Shown here piece after piece: positions 1 through 6,790 of a stretch of DNA of 9,965 nucleotides. Below the pieces are notes generated by a model that made no database searches, had not been told where the DNA came from, and worked only from the letters and a program-made list of their open reading frames with translations. A program made the position numbers and the translations under genes. How positions within the stretch are numbered: the stretch's first letter is position 1; each line of letters begins with the position of its first letter. The stretch is from NCBI GenBank assembly GCA_001797815.1, contig MGQK01000105.1:1-9965 (forward strand), written 5' to 3'. The stretch comes from Deltaproteobacteria bacterium RBG_13_61_14 (lineage in GTDB: Bacteria > RBG-13-61-14).

Positions 1-528
1 GGGGTCCGGGTGCACGAGAATCCCGGGGCCTTTCCGCTGGCGCGGCTGGTCGGCAACTGGCAAGGAGCGCGAGATGCCGAGGAAAGCGCCGCGGAGCTTT
101 TAGCAGGCCATGATTGGGCGAGTTGGGCGGTGGTCGAGGGGGTCGCTTCTTCCTCGGAGGGGAAAGCCCGGTCCTCCGGTTACCTTGAACCGTCAACCGT
201 CAACCGTCAACCGTCAACCGAGATGGGCCAGGTTCAAGTTCTGGAAAAGGCGGATGGCTATTTGCAGTTGTCGGTGGCGGCCAAGCGAGACTGCCTGCTT
301 CTGATCACGGAGAATTATTTCCCGGGCTGGCAGGCCCGGGTGAACGGGTCGCCCGCCCGAATTTTCCCCGCGGATCTCGCCTTTCGGGGTCTCTTGCTTA
401 AGCCGGGCGCTTCCCGCATCGAACTGATCTACCGGCCCTGGGCGTTTCGCGTGGGCCTCTTCTCCACCCTGGTTTCTCTGCTGGCGGCGGGGGCCGTCCT
501 GTTCAGCCGCCGGCGCCGATCCGTTTAA
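1..528 (+). CDS. YfhO-like multispanning membrane protein, C-terminal 175 residues (5' end outside window)
   Basis: The frame is open from base 1 to the TAA at 526-528, so the gene starts upstream of the window; the GTG at base 10 is not a convincing start. The visible part resembles the C-terminal extracytoplasmic domain of YfhO-type proteins. It has an ENP segment near the start, then a beta-rich region with [18 protein letters not shown] (the PGW triad at residues 108-110 counted from base 1), and then [10 protein letters not shown] and a YRP segment. A single membrane helix (about residues 149-167) and a basic RRRR tail follow. YfhO-like proteins are GT-C-fold membrane proteins linked in some bacteria to glycosylation of envelope polymers; the substrate here is unknown. 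Residues 64-73 ([10 protein letters not shown]) are encoded by a heptamer tandem repeat and look like a linker insertion. The 3' end overlaps the opposing dnaK gene by 26 bp. Confidence 0.72.
191..218. repeat. Heptamer tandem repeat (CGTCAAC)x4 inside the YfhO-like gene
   Basis: Four perfect copies of CGTCAAC lie head to tail at 191-197, 198-204, 205-211 and 212-218. Partial units flank them (AAC at 188-190, CG at 219-220). On the minus strand the unit is GTTGACG. The array is translated in frame as part of [10 protein letters not shown]. Because the unit is 7 bp, gain or loss of one copy would shift the reading frame of the host gene, while three copies (21 bp) would not. Confidence 0.95.
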
Positions 529-2320
529 TCAGGTCGGGCACCTGGTGGGTGTATTTCTTGATCTCCTGCAAATCGCCGAACTCGATCGCCTGGCGCGCCT
601 TCTTGAGCAGACTCTGCGCCTCCTGGACCAGGGACTTTTCCAGGCCCTTGTCCCGGGCGTGGAGCTCCCGCTCGACCTGCAGGAGCAGGCCCTCCAGCCG
701 GTTGCAGGCTTTTTCCACCTCGGACCGGCTCTTTAATTCCACCTCGTAGTTCTTGCTCGCGTCCACCATCCACTGGACTTCCTGGTCGGTCAGGCCCGAA
801 GAAGCGGTAACGGTGATGGACTGCTCCTGCCCGGTGTCCAGGTCCTTGGCCGAGACGCTGACGATGCCGTCCGAGTCAATGTCAAAGGTGACCTCGACCT
901 CCGGCTCGCCCCGCTTGGCCGGCCGGATGCCGGTGAGCATGAACTCGCCCAAAAGCTCGTTATCCGCGGCCCGGTCGCTCTCGCCCTGGAGCACGTGGAT
1001 CTTGACCGAAGCCTGGTTGTCGGCCGCGGTGGTGAAGATGTGGGAGGCATGGGTGGGAATGGTGGTGTTGCGCTCGATGACCCGGGTGAAGAAACCGCCG
1101 AAGGTGGCGATGCCCAGGCCCATGGGGGTGACGTCGAGGAGCAGGAGGTCTTCGGCCCTTTCCTCCCCGCCCGCGCCGGCCGCGGCCGAAAGCGCATGCC
1201 CCTGGATGGCCGCCCCCACCGCCACCACCTCGTCCGGGTGCACCCCTTTGCGCGGCGGCCGGTTGAAAAACTTCTGCACCACTTCCTGGACCCTGGGCAT
1301 CCGGGTCTGGCCCCCGACCAGGATCACCTCGTCAATGTCTTCCTTGGTCAGGCCGGCTGCTTCCAGGGTCTTGGTGCAAATGGAGAGGGTCCGCTCGACC
1401 AGGTCCGCGGTCAATTCCTCCAGCTTCTGCCGGGTCAGGGAGAGGTTGAGGTGGAGCGGGCCCTTGTCGCTCATGGCGATGAAAGGCAGGTTGATCTCGG
1501 TCTGCAGCGCGCTCGAAAGTTCGATCTTGGCCTTCTCCGCCGCGTCTTTCAGGCGCTGCAGCGCCATCTTGTCCCGGCGCAGGTTCACGCCTTCGTTCTG
1601 CTGGAAGCTCTCGGCGAGGTAGTCAATGATCCGGTCGTCGAAGTCGTCGCCGCCGAGATAGGTGTCGCCGGCGGTGGAGATGACCTCGAACACGCCCTCG
1701 CTGATCTCGAGGACGGAGATATCGAAGGTGCCCCCGCCCAGGTCGTAAATGGCCACGGTCTCGTCCAGCTTTTTCCCGTAGCCGTAAGCCAGCGCCGCCG
1801 CGGTCGGCTCGTTTATGATCCGGAGCACGTCCAGCCCGGCGATACGGCCGGCGTCTTTGGTGCCCTGGCGCTGCCCGTCGTTGAAATAGGCCGGAACCGT
1901 GACCACCGCCTCCTTCACCGGTTCGCCCAGGTATTCCTCGGCCACCCGGCGCATCTCCTGCAGCACCATGGCCCCGATCTCGGGCAGGCTGAACTCCTGT
2001 CCCCCGGCCCGGACCCGGACATCGGAGTGCGGCCCCTCGAAAATCTCGTAGGGATACGAAGCCAGCGCCTTTTTCACCTCGGGCGAATCGAACTTGCGGC
2101 CGATCAGCCGCTTGGTCGCGTAGATGGTGTTCTTGGGGTTGGTCACCATCTGGCGCTTGGCCAACTGGCCCACCAGCCGCCGGCCGCCTTCTTCAAATGC
2201 CACCACCGAGGGCGTGGTCTTGTAGCCCCCCTTGTTGGGTATCACCTTGGGCTGACCATCTTCGACCACCGCGACGCAGGAATAGGTGGTCCCCAGGTCA
2301 ATTCCGATTACTTTCCCCAT
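503..2320 (-). CDS. dnaK: Hsp70 chaperone, DnaK paralogue with short C-terminus
   Basis: This 605-residue ATP-dependent protein-folding chaperone is cytoplasmic. The ATPase domain (about 1-385) shows [10 protein letters not shown] (6-15), VTVPAYFND (140-148), [12 protein letters not shown] (169-180), DLGGGTFD (193-200), GDDFD (224-228) and VGGQTRMP (335-342). The linker is LLLLDVTP (392-399), and the substrate-binding beta domain runs to about 506. Differences from canonical DnaK include [13 protein letters not shown] where SQRQATKDAG is usual, and [11 protein letters not shown] where PLSLGIETLGG is usual. The lid is followed directly by a GAGG end, without the long disordered acidic tail of housekeeping DnaK (about 640 residues). 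The start has a strong AAGGAGG six bases upstream. It follows a J-domain gene by 11 nt, which is the expected Hsp40-Hsp70 pairing, but there is no grpE beside it. It is probably a specialised second DnaK rather than the housekeeping copy, so the symbol denotes the family only. Confidence 0.93.
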
Positions 2321-2326
2321 CCCCGT

Positions 2327-2334
2327 CCTCCTTA
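2327..2334 (-). promoter_or_regulatory. Ribosome binding site of dnaK overlapping the upstream stop codon
   Basis: On the minus strand the J-protein stop codon TAA (2334-2332) runs straight into AAGGAGG (2333-2327), followed by six bases and the dnaK ATG at 2320. The shared bases mean that terminating ribosomes sit on the next initiation region. This suggests translational coupling and fixed stoichiometry of the J-protein and DnaK. Confidence 0.8.
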
Positions 2335-3648
2335 CTTTTTACGCAAGGCCTTGAGCTCTTTCGCCGCTTGTTTGTGCTTGGGATTCAACTCCAGGGCCTT
2401 CTCCATTTGGATAATCGCCGGTTGTTTCTGGCTCAGGCCCTGATAGGCCTGCCCCAGCAGGAAATGGAAATCCGCGTCGCCCTTCTTCAAGTCAATCGCC
2501 CTCAGCACCAGCACCCGCGTCCGCTCGTAATTGTGCTGGTGCTCCAACACCACCTTGGCCAGGCGATAGAGCCCTTGCGGGTTCTCTGGATTGATCTTCA
2601 AGGCCTCTCCGTAAAGTCGAATCGCCTTGCTGTAGTCTTGAAATTCCTCGGCTTCCTGGCCCTGTTTAAAGGCGATTTCCGCCTGCATCGTGCTTTCCAA
2701 CTGCTTGAGTCGCTCCGTCTCCGCCAGGTAGGTCGGGTTCTGCGGATCGTAGTGCAACGCCAGCTTCAGGTTGATCTCCGCGGCTTTCAAATTCCTCTTC
2801 TCGATCTCCACCAGCGCCCCCTGGTAAAAACGGCGCGCCTGAGCCAAAAGGTTCTGCGCCCCCGCGCTGGATTGCGCCTCCTTCAATTTCTCCTCGAGCC
2901 GGCGCTCGAGCGACCCCTTGCCGAAATCGAGCTTGAGCTTCGGCCCGGGCGGCGGCTCAGCCGGCGGCGGCTCGGCCGGCCGCGGCCGGTCTTTCCGCCG
3001 GACTTCCACGGTCTCGTCCCACTCCAGGTCCAGCCGGGGCTTGGCCGCGTCTTCTTGGCGCAACTGGGCGTCGTACTCCCCGCGGCGGACCGGGTCGAAG
3101 AGCTCCCGATAGGCCAGGTTGATCCGCTTGAAGATCTCCTGGAGTTTTCTCCGGAATTCCGGGTCGGCGTGGCGGAAATGGCGGTCCGGGTGGAAAAGCT
3201 TGGACTGCTGCAGATAGGCCTTCTTGACCGCTTTGGAGGCGGCATTGCTGTCCACTCCCAGGAGTTCGTACCAGTTGAGGTGCTCTCGGCTCAGAAATAG
3301 CTCTTCCACCAGGGCCGCGAATTCTTTTCCCGATAAGGGGCGCTCCGCCGAAGCCGGCTTTTTCACCGGCCGAGCGGCCGCGGCCGGCTTTTCCCGGGAT
3401 CGGGCGTGGTGCCAGGTCACCACGCCTTTGGCATGAAGCTCGGCGAGAAGCTTCAAAGTCTCATCCTGCCCCAGCCCGGTCAGGCTGAACAGATGCTTCA
3501 CGCTGGTGCGACCATCCAAGCGGGAGAGCATGAAACCTTCGCGCGCATCCAAGGCCAGGTCTAAAACCGCGATCCCTTCACAAACGATCGGCACCGCTTC
3601 CAGGGGGATGTCCTCCGGCCGACAGACGTGCGGGGAAGAAGAATTCAC
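2332..3648 (-). CDS. J-domain co-chaperone with winged-helix-like N-terminus and C-terminal TPRs
   Basis: This is a 438-residue protein. The GTG start at 3648-3646 overlaps the argF stop (GTGA) and has GGGAGA six bases upstream. The longer open frame to 4164 is rejected because it lies inside argF and gives low-complexity shadow sequence. Residues about 12-80 form a compact region ([20 protein letters not shown]) resembling the small helical or winged-helix module found in some deltaproteobacterial regulators. A linker follows, then a J domain at about 122-195 with the essential HPD at 153-155 and NWYELLGV at its start. A proline-rich linker ([13 protein letters not shown], 224-236) and a charged helix (247-259) come next. 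TPR-like helices fill about 264-426, best seen at 323-356 and 393-426. J domains stimulate the ATPase of Hsp70, and the adjacent dnaK is the obvious partner. The TPRs and N-terminal module probably choose the client or location. No zinc-finger or G/F region is present, so this is not a housekeeping DnaJ. Confidence 0.9.
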
Positions 3649-4556
3649 TTCCGGTCTCCCAGCAGGTGCTCGAGGATGGCTTTTTGCACGTGCAACCGGT
3701 TCTCGGCCTGGGCAAAGACCACCGAGTTCGGCCCCTCCAGCGCGTCCTCCGTGATCTCCTCGCCCCGGTGCGCCGGCAGGCAGTGCATGATGCGAACTTC
3801 CGGCTGGGCCAGCCGGATCAACTCCCGGTTGATCTGAAAGCCCTGAAACACTTGCCGGCGTTCCGACTTTTGGGCTTCCTGGCCCATGCTCACCCACACA
3901 TCCGTATAGAGCACGCCCGCCCCGGCCGCGGCTTCTTTCGGGTCCTCCACCACCGTCACCGCCCCTCCGGCCGAGGCCAGGACCTCCGGGTCGGGCCGAA
4001 AGGCTCTTGGGCAGGCCACCATCAGGTGCAGGCCGAAGAGCTTGGCGGCAAGGATCCAGGAGTGGACCATGTTGTTGGAGCCGTCGCCGATGAAGGCCAC
4101 CCGCAAGCCCGGCTGAAGCAGCCCTTGCTCCCGCAAGGTGAAAACATCCGCCAGCACCTGGCAAGGATGGCAGCGGTCGGTCAGGGCATTGATCACCGGC
4201 ACCGTGGCCCAGCGCGCCAACTCCTCCACCTCGGCATGGGCCGCGGTCCGAATCACAATACCATGAACATAGCCGGAAAGCACCCGCGCCGTGTCTTTCA
4301 GGGGCTCGCCCCGGCCCATCTGGGTGCCGTCCTTGGACAGGACCAGCGGGTAGCCGCCCAGCTCCCGGATGCCCACTTCAAAAGAAACCCGGGTGCGGGT
4401 GGAGGACTTGAGGAAAATCATGGCCACGCTCTTGCCCAAAAGCGGCTGGGGCGAGGAAGAGCTTCGGCGCAGGGCCTTGAACTCCGCCGCCCGCTTGAGC
4501 AAGCACTCGGCTTCCGACAAGCTGAGATCGGTCAATGACAAAAAATCCTTTTTCAT
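3645..4556 (-). CDS. argF: Ornithine carbamoyltransferase
   Basis: This 303-residue protein is of normal length for the family. It transfers the carbamoyl group of carbamoyl phosphate to ornithine to make citrulline, in the arginine pathway in the cytoplasm. The carbamoyl-phosphate loop STRTR is at residues 52-56, HPCQ at 130-133, and a nucleotide-fold-like GDGSNNMVHSW at 157-167. The ornithine-side motif DVWVSMG is at 219-225 and HCLPAHRG at 258-265. The SMG and HCLP motifs identify an OTCase rather than an aspartate carbamoyltransferase. FLK (48-50) stands where FEK is common before STRTR. The N-terminus MKKDFLSLTDLS matches usual OTCase starts, so the ATG at 4556 is kept despite having no Shine-Dalgarno. 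A promoter-like sequence immediately upstream suggests a very short leader. The gene overlaps the J-protein start by 4 nt and is preceded by a PHP gene 83 nt away. Confidence 0.95.
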   Translation of the reverse strand: MKKDFLSLTDLSLSEAECLLKRAAEFKALRRSSSSPQPLLGKSVAMIFLKSSTRTRVSFEVGIRELGGYPLVLSKDGTQMGRGEPLKDTARVLSGYVHGIVIRTAAHAEVEELARWATVPVINALTDRCHPCQVLADVFTLREQGLLQPGLRVAFIGDGSNNMVHSWILAAKLFGLHLMVACPRAFRPDPEVLASAGGAVTVVEDPKEAAAGAGVLYTDVWVSMGQEAQKSERRQVFQGFQINRELIRLAQPEVRIMHCLPAHRGEEITEDALEGPNSVVFAQAENRLHVQKAILEHLLGDRK

Positions 4557-4567
4557 CGGATCGGGTT

Positions 4568-4597
4568 ATTCTAGCATAAACTTATACAAGACAACAA
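4568..4597 (-). promoter_or_regulatory. Candidate sigma70-type promoter for argF-J-protein-dnaK
   Basis: Reading the minus strand, TTGTTG (4597-4592) is followed by 18 bp and TAGAAT (4573-4568). A TGC immediately upstream makes an extended -10. Transcription would start near 4561-4560, only about 4-5 nt before the argF ATG, which fits the lack of a ribosome binding site. Its stretch (4561-4600) is clearly more AT-rich than the genes around it. This is inference from motif matching only. Confidence 0.45.
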
Positions 4598-4602
4598 TCT
4601 AT

Positions 4603-4643
4603 GTTCCTGGTTCCTGGTTATTGGTTCCTGGTTTCGGGTTCAT
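4603..4643. repeat. Degenerate heptamer array GTTNNNG between PHP gene and argF
   Basis: Successive 7-bp units on the plus strand are GTTCCTG (4603), GTTCCTG (4610), GTTATTG (4617), GTTCCTG (4624), GTTTCGG (4631) and a decayed GTTCATA (4638). Five units keep GTT at positions 1-3 and G at position 7. The array occupies about half of the PHP-argF spacer, and its last unit contains the PHP stop codon (4642-4640). The pattern matches the minus-strand unit GTTGACG of the array at 191-218. Confidence 0.85.
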
Positions 4644-5380
4644 ACTACGGAAAGGTGTTCCCCTTCCCTTTTCCGTTTACGGCCAAACAGGAAATAATAA
4701 GGGATGTTCCAGAACACGTCGGAAACAACTTTACCGAACAACACCTGCAGGTAAACCGGGAGCGCCAGCGGCTGGCTGACCACGCGCACCCGGCCGGCCT
4801 TGACCGCGGCGATGACCGCTTCCGCCTTGGGCTCGCTTTCGATCAGGCTGTAGGTCTTGCCCAACTGCCAGGCCGAGTGCATGTCCGAGTTCCCCACCAG
4901 GGGCAGGCCCTGCGCCCGGGCCAGCGCCACCGCCCGGCGGTTGGAGTTCAGGACCCGGGAATAGAAGTGGCAGTATTCCACCGCGTCAAACGCGTCCAGA
5001 TGCTTTTTCAGCAGGCCCCGCAAGGCAAACGGAGAAGGATAAAAAGGGTGGGGGGCGATGACCAGGTAGCCGTCCCGCCGCATGGCGCGCAGGTCGTCAA
5101 AAGTTTTCGGAAGAATTAGCCTCCCTTCCGGACCGATCACCAGCACGTGGCGGGCCCGGATCTGCGCCTCCACCCCCACGAGGAGCAGAAGCCCCTGGTC
5201 CCGCGCCCGCGCCACCTGCTCGGCCGTGACCGTGGGCCGGAGGTGGTTGGTGACCGCGAGGACCTGGAATCCCTCTTGCCGGGCGCGGGCGATCACGTCC
5301 TCGGTGCTGTACCGGATCAGGTGGTAATCCACCACGTCCTCGCAGGTGTGGATGTGAAGGTCGGCCTTGAGTTCCGGCAT
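4640..5380 (-). CDS. PHP-domain metal-dependent phosphoesterase-like protein
   Basis: This 246-residue protein carries the PHP metal-site motifs. They are DLHIHT (H9, H11), VTNH (43-46, with N45 where Asp is usual), E71 in GVEAQ, H78, HPF (H111), H138 in EYCHFYS and SDMH (D166, H168). PHP proteins hydrolyse phosphoester bonds with two or three metal ions. Known substrates range from histidinol phosphate to nucleotides and RNA, so none can be assigned here. After the barrel, residues about 204-234 are hydrophobic and aromatic (FWNIPYYFLFG) and end in a basic patch, which could be a membrane-associating tail. The ATG at 5380 is chosen because GGAG sits five bases upstream; a TTG one codon earlier would leave only two bases. 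It lies 64 nt after argD and 83 nt before argF on the same strand. HisK-type activity is possible but unsupported. Confidence 0.85.
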   Translation of the reverse strand: MPELKADLHIHTCEDVVDYHLIRYSTEDVIARARQEGFQVLAVTNHLRPTVTAEQVARARDQGLLLLVGVEAQIRARHVLVIGPEGRLILPKTFDDLRAMRRDGYLVIAPHPFYPSPFALRGLLKKHLDAFDAVEYCHFYSRVLNSNRRAVALARAQGLPLVGNSDMHSAWQLGKTYSLIESEPKAEAVIAAVKAGRVRVVSQPLALPVYLQVLFGKVVSDVFWNIPYYFLFGRKRKREGEHLSVV

Positions 5381-5444
5381 CAATGCTCCGCCCGTCTCTT
5401 TTTCTCTTCCCCTGCCCTTCTCATCCTTGGATGAGCGCGGCGAT

Positions 5445-6762: not shown

Positions 6763-6790
6763 GTAGGGGCGCGATTAATCGCGCCCCTAC
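6763..6790. repeat. 28-bp perfect palindrome, REP-like
   Basis: The sequence from 6763 reads GTAGGGGCGCGATT and the second 14 bases are its exact reverse complement. It lies in the SDR leader, 24 bp before the Shine-Dalgarno. GTAGGGGC...GCCCCTAC palindromes are, from memory, a common dispersed repeat type in several bacterial phyla. No T-run follows, so a terminator role is unlikely. As RNA it would form a strong GC-rich hairpin. Confidence 0.8.

Follow-up and report, generated by a model that had tools for sequence, protein, structure and literature searches.

Dispersed, degenerate heptad repeats, often paired as hairpins of fixed polarity, in the genome of Deltaproteobacteria bacterium RBG_13_61_14

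The contig MGQK01000105.1 of Deltaproteobacteria bacterium RBG_13_61_14, analysed here over its entire length of 9,965 nt (the window; contig C105), contains two short tandem arrays of seven-base units at unrelated loci, and the question is why both are written in the same frame, GTTNNNG. In this frame, array 1 consists of four minus-strand GTTGACG units (218-191) and a fifth unit, GTTCAAG, which gives it a span of 184-218; array 2 comprises the plus-strand units GTTCCTG, GTTCCTG, GTTATTG, GTTCCTG and GTTTCGG (4603-4637), extended to 4643 by GGTTCAT. The common frame, noticed in a first-pass annotation of the letters alone, is borne out: both arrays are detected by Tandem Repeats Finder (TRF), no other (GTTNNNG)x3 is present in the window, and none arose in 300 dinucleotide-shuffled versions of it. 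Since the G at position 7 already belongs to the following unit, as its first letter, the frame is better given as RGTTNNN. On balance, the two arrays are probably members of a genome-wide set of dispersed, degenerate heptad repeats, with a constrained core and often arranged as polarity-fixed hairpins, which would have spread by copying.

The host genome comprises 4.74 Mb. The statistics given below come from approximately 1.06 Mb of its stretches, some of which were picked around known arrays and are therefore partially enriched, together with pattern searches of the whole genome, which are free of this selection. Over the whole genome, (GTTNNNG)x3 matches 143 times and the four-unit pattern 73 times, compared with 8 and 1 for the reversed pattern; the latter itself resembles heptad words (GNNNTTG fits GATTTTG; TTGG), so that the control counts are upper bounds on the background. 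The sample contains 89 matches of (GTTNNNG)x3, and its dinucleotide shuffles none. The genome scan that the first-pass annotation had proposed thus returns far more than two arrays, above shuffles, and strongly supports its suggestion of a dispersed heptad family in which GTT is fixed and positions 4-6 vary. A word-free lag scan leads to the same unit length, with 112 arrays at lag 7 and harmonics at 14 and 21, compared with 12, 15, 27, 27, 3 and 7 arrays at lags 4, 5, 8, 10, 11 and 13, respectively; lags 6, 9 and 12 are also high, which is attributed to codon periodicity. The genome has several heptad word families; RGTTNNN is the largest, and the others include RGATTTT, GTATNTC, AGGCNTT, AGGTCGT, GGGTGAA and AGTGCAC. 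The idea of one shared generating process was partly right; the frame is one of several words, and the polarity-fixed inverted pairs described below had gone unnoticed. Arrays with 8-, 9- and 10-base units are also found in this genome and are rarer than heptads (GGTGTCAT, CACGAAGGA, ACACGAAGGG and CGCGTTNATC; for example L045:19462, L170:19259 and L173:5421).

Within the unit, the positions fall into a core and a variable part. In the 192 units drawn from arrays that the lag scan defined and that have GGTT as their consensus, constancy reaches 89, 97, 98 and 99% at positions 1-4, respectively, and the commonest letter at positions 5-7 reaches just 54, 36 and 51%. The variable triplet is nevertheless non-random, with CCT, CAC, CGC, GAC, GGC and TCT accounting for 127 of the 192 units. 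Neighbouring RGTTNNN units in the host genome carry an identical triplet in 41 of 251 cases (16%), compared with 7.5% between arrays; this identity is no higher for adjacent units than for those at a distance of two or three units, and no identical adjacent units are present in 45 of the 74 RGTT arrays. A few host arrays show multi-unit expansion, as (CCT TCT)n or (CAA CAA TAA)n.

The arrays are predominantly intergenic. As judged with a simple hexamer gene caller on the sample, in which 87% of the DNA falls into called genes, 106 of 123 arrays (86%) lie between genes and 17 within them, in agreement with the earlier view that coding is not the explanation. Divergent spacers hold fewer arrays than their length predicts (14 of 104, with about 25 expected) and convergent spacers somewhat more; for 62 of 104 arrays the closest gene end is a stop codon (47% expected), a tendency to which array 2, with the PHP stop inside it, conforms, and there is no preferred orientation relative to transcription (30 vs 32). 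The genic arrays occupy tolerant sites: the YfhO loop in the window, a segment ahead of NPPY in type IIG methylases (NREPGTANH) and a site in a Kdo/WaaP-like kinase (SKIQNLKSKI). The first-pass annotation described peptides such as STVNRQPST as recurrent in environmental genomes; recurrence of array peptides was found within proteins of the host genome (NREPGTANH, NQEPGT and SKIQNLKSKI). RGTT arrays are present in three genes for type IIG-like restriction methylases (L173:10696, L174:5017 and L040:1177), and in two of them NREPGTANH occupies the identical site, directly in front of FDVVIGNPPY, with a further short repeat (CACAGAG...) ahead of it.

In some elements the flanks, too, are shared, over as much as 390 bp, which indicates that intergenic pieces get copied, and at some loci the array blocks lie inside larger duplicated intergenic pieces. 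One intergenic repeat of 140-390 bp, with GTATGTC heptads within it, is present at 86-93% identity at L034:868-1517, L047:10993-11335, L174:2669-3056, L045:12147-12284, L179:145-289 and L205:527-670.

The arrays frequently come in facing pairs. Neighbouring arrays no more than 150 bp apart form 66 pairs in the host genome; 26 of these consist of one word in inverted orientation, compared with 10% for random pairs (p 1e-10), and the G/T-rich arm comes first in 24 of the 26. As this order is identical on both strands, the polarity is a property of the element. Named genomes from a range of phyla, among them Bacteroidetes, Cyanobacteria, Chloroflexi, Planctomycetes, Verrucomicrobia and Proteobacteria, show the same polarity at 27:5. 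When exact inverted repeats within heptad arrays are counted, G/T-first outnumbers A/C-first by 43:0 in the host and 33:8 in the named genomes, whereas non-heptad inverted repeats are without polarity (24:19 in the host, intergenic; 48:35 in the named genomes). Whole-genome patterns in the host give 11:0 for GGTT-word pairs and 42 G/T-first places vs 0 for GATTT words. Across 386 genomes, in counts summed from tables in which overlapping registers of one array are included, GGTT words give 78 G/T-first places in 30 genomes vs 22 A/C-first places in 17, and for TTGG words the reversed controls yield 235 in 28 vs 36 in 18. Among genomes with at least two places G/T-first clearly predominates, and A/C-first is confined to G005 and G115. 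By far the richest of the 386 are G202 and G354, with 138 and 38 paired, G/T-first TTGG-heptad hairpins, respectively.

Many of the inverted pairs are predicted to fold as long imperfect hairpins (-30 to -61 kcal/mol). The loop length clusters by family despite differing loop sequence, being mostly 13-15 in GATT elements (8 of 11), mostly 21-23 in GGTT elements (4 of 7) and 37-61 in GTAT elements; strict in-phase hairpin lengths for the GATT elements were not upheld, as loops of 13 and 15 occur as well. Many GGTT arms terminate in GGAAAGA, hairpins of genome G002 have a GAATTC centre, and GGAAA or GGAAG follows 15 of 74 RGTT arrays; a first regular expression for a common GGAAAG...CTTTCC cap found 3 cases only. 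The predicted folds of heptad pairs show no evident T-run of the kind that an intrinsic terminator has, and a search of the window and of five loci that bear hairpins against Rfam 15 gave no match at the gathering score.

We infer from these features that the elements were dispersed by the copying of intergenic DNA in blocks, and that length changes involve entire blocks of several units, gained or lost together. The core and the seven-base spacing may be required by the strand in its folded form, or by a factor binding it, so that both would be kept. The window arrays would then be half-elements or remnants settled in tolerant sites, namely a variable protein loop and a stop codon/spacer junction. 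By their sequence they are unpaired single members of RGTTNNN, the commonest heptad family, and what is concluded for the class reaches them by kinship alone. Several observations weigh against this account. Neither window array has an inverted partner within 150 bp, so that its hairpin part rests on relatives. The arms of GATT-family elements match their own partner no better than other copies, which argues against recent inverted duplication. Most single matches in the 386-genome polarity test may be chance, and overlapping registers of one array enter the counts. Contig C26 of G005 has five A/C-first AACC...GGTT pairs with a common centre, that is, of reverse polarity; this genome has many GTTNNNG matches, yet one period-7 array in 140 kb.

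The features of the window that bear on the two arrays are collected in the table. Array 1 encodes an 11-residue peptide in a loop of the YfhO-like protein, the length of which varies among homologues in the alignment; since homologues differ in length at this loop, a reading of array 1 as a clean insertion was given up. The description of one array as genic and the other as lying in a spacer holds for array 1, in the YfhO-like gene, and, in part, for array 2, which is in the argF/PHP spacer, 45 bp upstream of the argF-like start, but also includes the end of a gene: the TGA stop of the PHP gene (4642-4640) falls within its last heptad. The PHP gene has just weak relatives (27-28%) in genomes of the same order. 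No intrinsic terminator in the form of a GC-rich hairpin followed by a T-run was found around array 2. The YfhO-like gene (plus strand) and a DnaK-like gene (minus strand) overlap tail-to-tail by 26 bases, at 503-528.

Table. Heptad arrays of the window and the genes that contain or adjoin them.
Feature	Position	Strand	Units or basis
Heptad array 1	185..219	-	GGTTGAC x4 + GGTTCAA; TRF, pattern search
Heptad array 2	4602..4643	+	TGTTCCT GGTTCCT GGTTATT GGTTCCT GGTTTCG GGTTCAT; TRF, pattern search
YfhO-like membrane protein gene, 3' part, holds array 1	1..528	+	Pfam PF09586 E 2.9e-7, residues 79-154
argF-like ornithine/aspartate carbamoyltransferase gene	3645..4556	-	ORF list + Pfam
PHP-domain protein gene	4640..5383	-	Pfam PHP_C E 5.4e-11

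Chance or coding bias is refuted by the empty shuffles and the non-coding location of most arrays; the position of array 1 inside a gene is all that speaks for it. Ordinary replication slippage of a seven-base unit, followed by neutral mutation, was part of the first-pass proposal, and arrays that look slipped do exist, among them the four GAC units of array 1 and the multi-unit expansions mentioned above; heptamers have been called slippage-prone in the literature. In other named genomes, chosen for five-unit arrays, the triplets of adjacent units are identical in 57% of cases, and slippage is genuine in some of them. For the host genome, however, the low neighbour identity combined with a near-invariant core disfavours single-unit slippage with neutral mutation, and polarity-fixed inverted pairs are not predicted by it, so that the proposal holds for some other genomes and fails here; as an explanation of the host arrays it is improbable. 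A more serious competitor, though still rather unlikely, is that the arrays are sites for a DNA- or RNA-binding protein, such as a nucleoid or post-transcriptional regulator, that reads RGTT at seven-base spacing, with the pairs as facing half-sites. The first-pass annotation had named a protein recognising GTT every 7 bp as one possibility. A fixed core with free triplets resembles a motif, the facing orientation of the pairs is fixed, MacGregor proposed post-transcriptional binding for the TAACTGA repeats (PMC4679880), and regulator sites are proposed for paired opposite-strand heptamer/octamer repeats of Geobacter metallireducens (PMC2700814). On the other hand, many heptad words coexist and each would need its own reader; nor do the arrays prefer promoters, being under-represented in divergent spacers and mostly nearest to a stop, or either orientation relative to transcription.

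It is more doubtful still that the elements are palindromes of the REP/REPIN type (repetitive extragenic palindromes), mobilised by RAYT (Y1) transposases. The heptad elements are likewise small, intergenic, palindromic and dispersed, and the host genome has a high number of Y1_Tnp matches (19; e.g. L241-L250), mostly in open frames of 300+ aa. REP/REPIN elements, however, have tagged ends and a transposase neighbour and are without heptad arms, and among ten Y1_Tnp genes examined just two have a heptad array at a distance of about 1.5 kb or less. Moreover, the GTAG-tagged palindromes of the host (GTAGGGGC...GCCCCTAC) form a separate sequence family. One such palindrome, GTAGGGGCGCGATTAATCGCGCCCCTAC, lies at 6763-6790 of the window, and 1.07 Mb of the host genome contain 87 copies of GTAGGGGC, 18 of them as a palindrome; these look like the REP family of the host, distinct from the heptads.

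Heptamers are the commonest longer-unit repeats in many bacteria (Mrazek and colleagues, cited in PMC4679880 by MacGregor and in PMC4692102 by Rehm), and the precedent in cyanobacteria to which the first-pass annotation referred is correct. The host arrays are like STRR/LSSR-type heptanucleotide repeats in their tandem seven-base units, many copies, sporadic occurrence across taxa and non-coding bias, and differ in that neighbouring units are rarely near-identical, as they are more often in the named genomes. A structural parallel to the hairpins is found in the P6b stem-loop of the Nostoc trnL intron, with its Class I TDNGATT and Class II NNTGAGT heptads (PMC4476775): there too degenerate fixed-core heptads form both hairpin arms, and the length changes in heptad steps. 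The host RGATTTT family (TTRGATT) fits Class I, and RGTTNNN does not. P6b is part of a group I intron, whereas the host elements, with many other words, are at many intergenic sites, those sampled being mostly between protein genes.

The TAACTGA repeats of Beggiatoaceae, Cyanobacteria and Bacteroidetes (PMC4679880) are also dispersed intergenic heptamers, and on the other strand the word becomes AGTTATC, inside the RGTTNNN frame. They consist, however, of one near-invariant word whose single-base variants are rarely repeated, mostly in direct arrays just upstream of start codons; the host words differ from it and the arrays show neither this orientation nor this position. The GGGNATC repeats of Xanthomonas and Nostoc (PMC4692102) resemble the host arrays as dispersed non-coding heptamers that lie near stops and are rarer between divergent genes; their G-tracts form quadruplexes, for which the RGTT units, without a GGG core, do not supply four G-tracts. 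Geobacter metallireducens (PMC2700814) has GGACCGG x4 elements as well as tandem sites that come in pairs (MTYCTGA heptamer; GTTGCTYN octamer); these are alike in their opposite-strand pairs, multiple copies and location between and within genes, and unlike in their words, their variable pair distance and a function that is predicted only, and polarity is not stated in the text consulted. A polarity rule was not found in PMC4679880, PMC4692102, PMC4476775 or the text consulted of PMC2700814, in a search confined to freely accessible literature. The host arrays are best read as a degenerate, often hairpin-forming variant of the known heptamer repeats of cyanobacteria, Xanthomonas, Beggiatoaceae and Geobacter, to which the polarity rule is an addition.

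Heptamer repeats have been reported piecemeal over decades, one word and one taxon at a time, with no agreed cause. The present data suggest a single class with three testable rules: a period of seven, variable letters next to a core that is fixed, and a G/T-first order in the inverted pairs. A bolder and rather speculative extension is that heptad hairpins are a bacteria-wide class of element with conserved G/T-first polarity, which would imply a dedicated factor, enzymatic or binding, that reads one hairpin strand and makes, copies or maintains fixed-core heptads. The polarity rule constrains models of origin, because it is seen for several unrelated words and in many genomes, whereas other inverted repeats of the same DNA do not show it, and it makes the question of slippage, selection or mobility directly testable.

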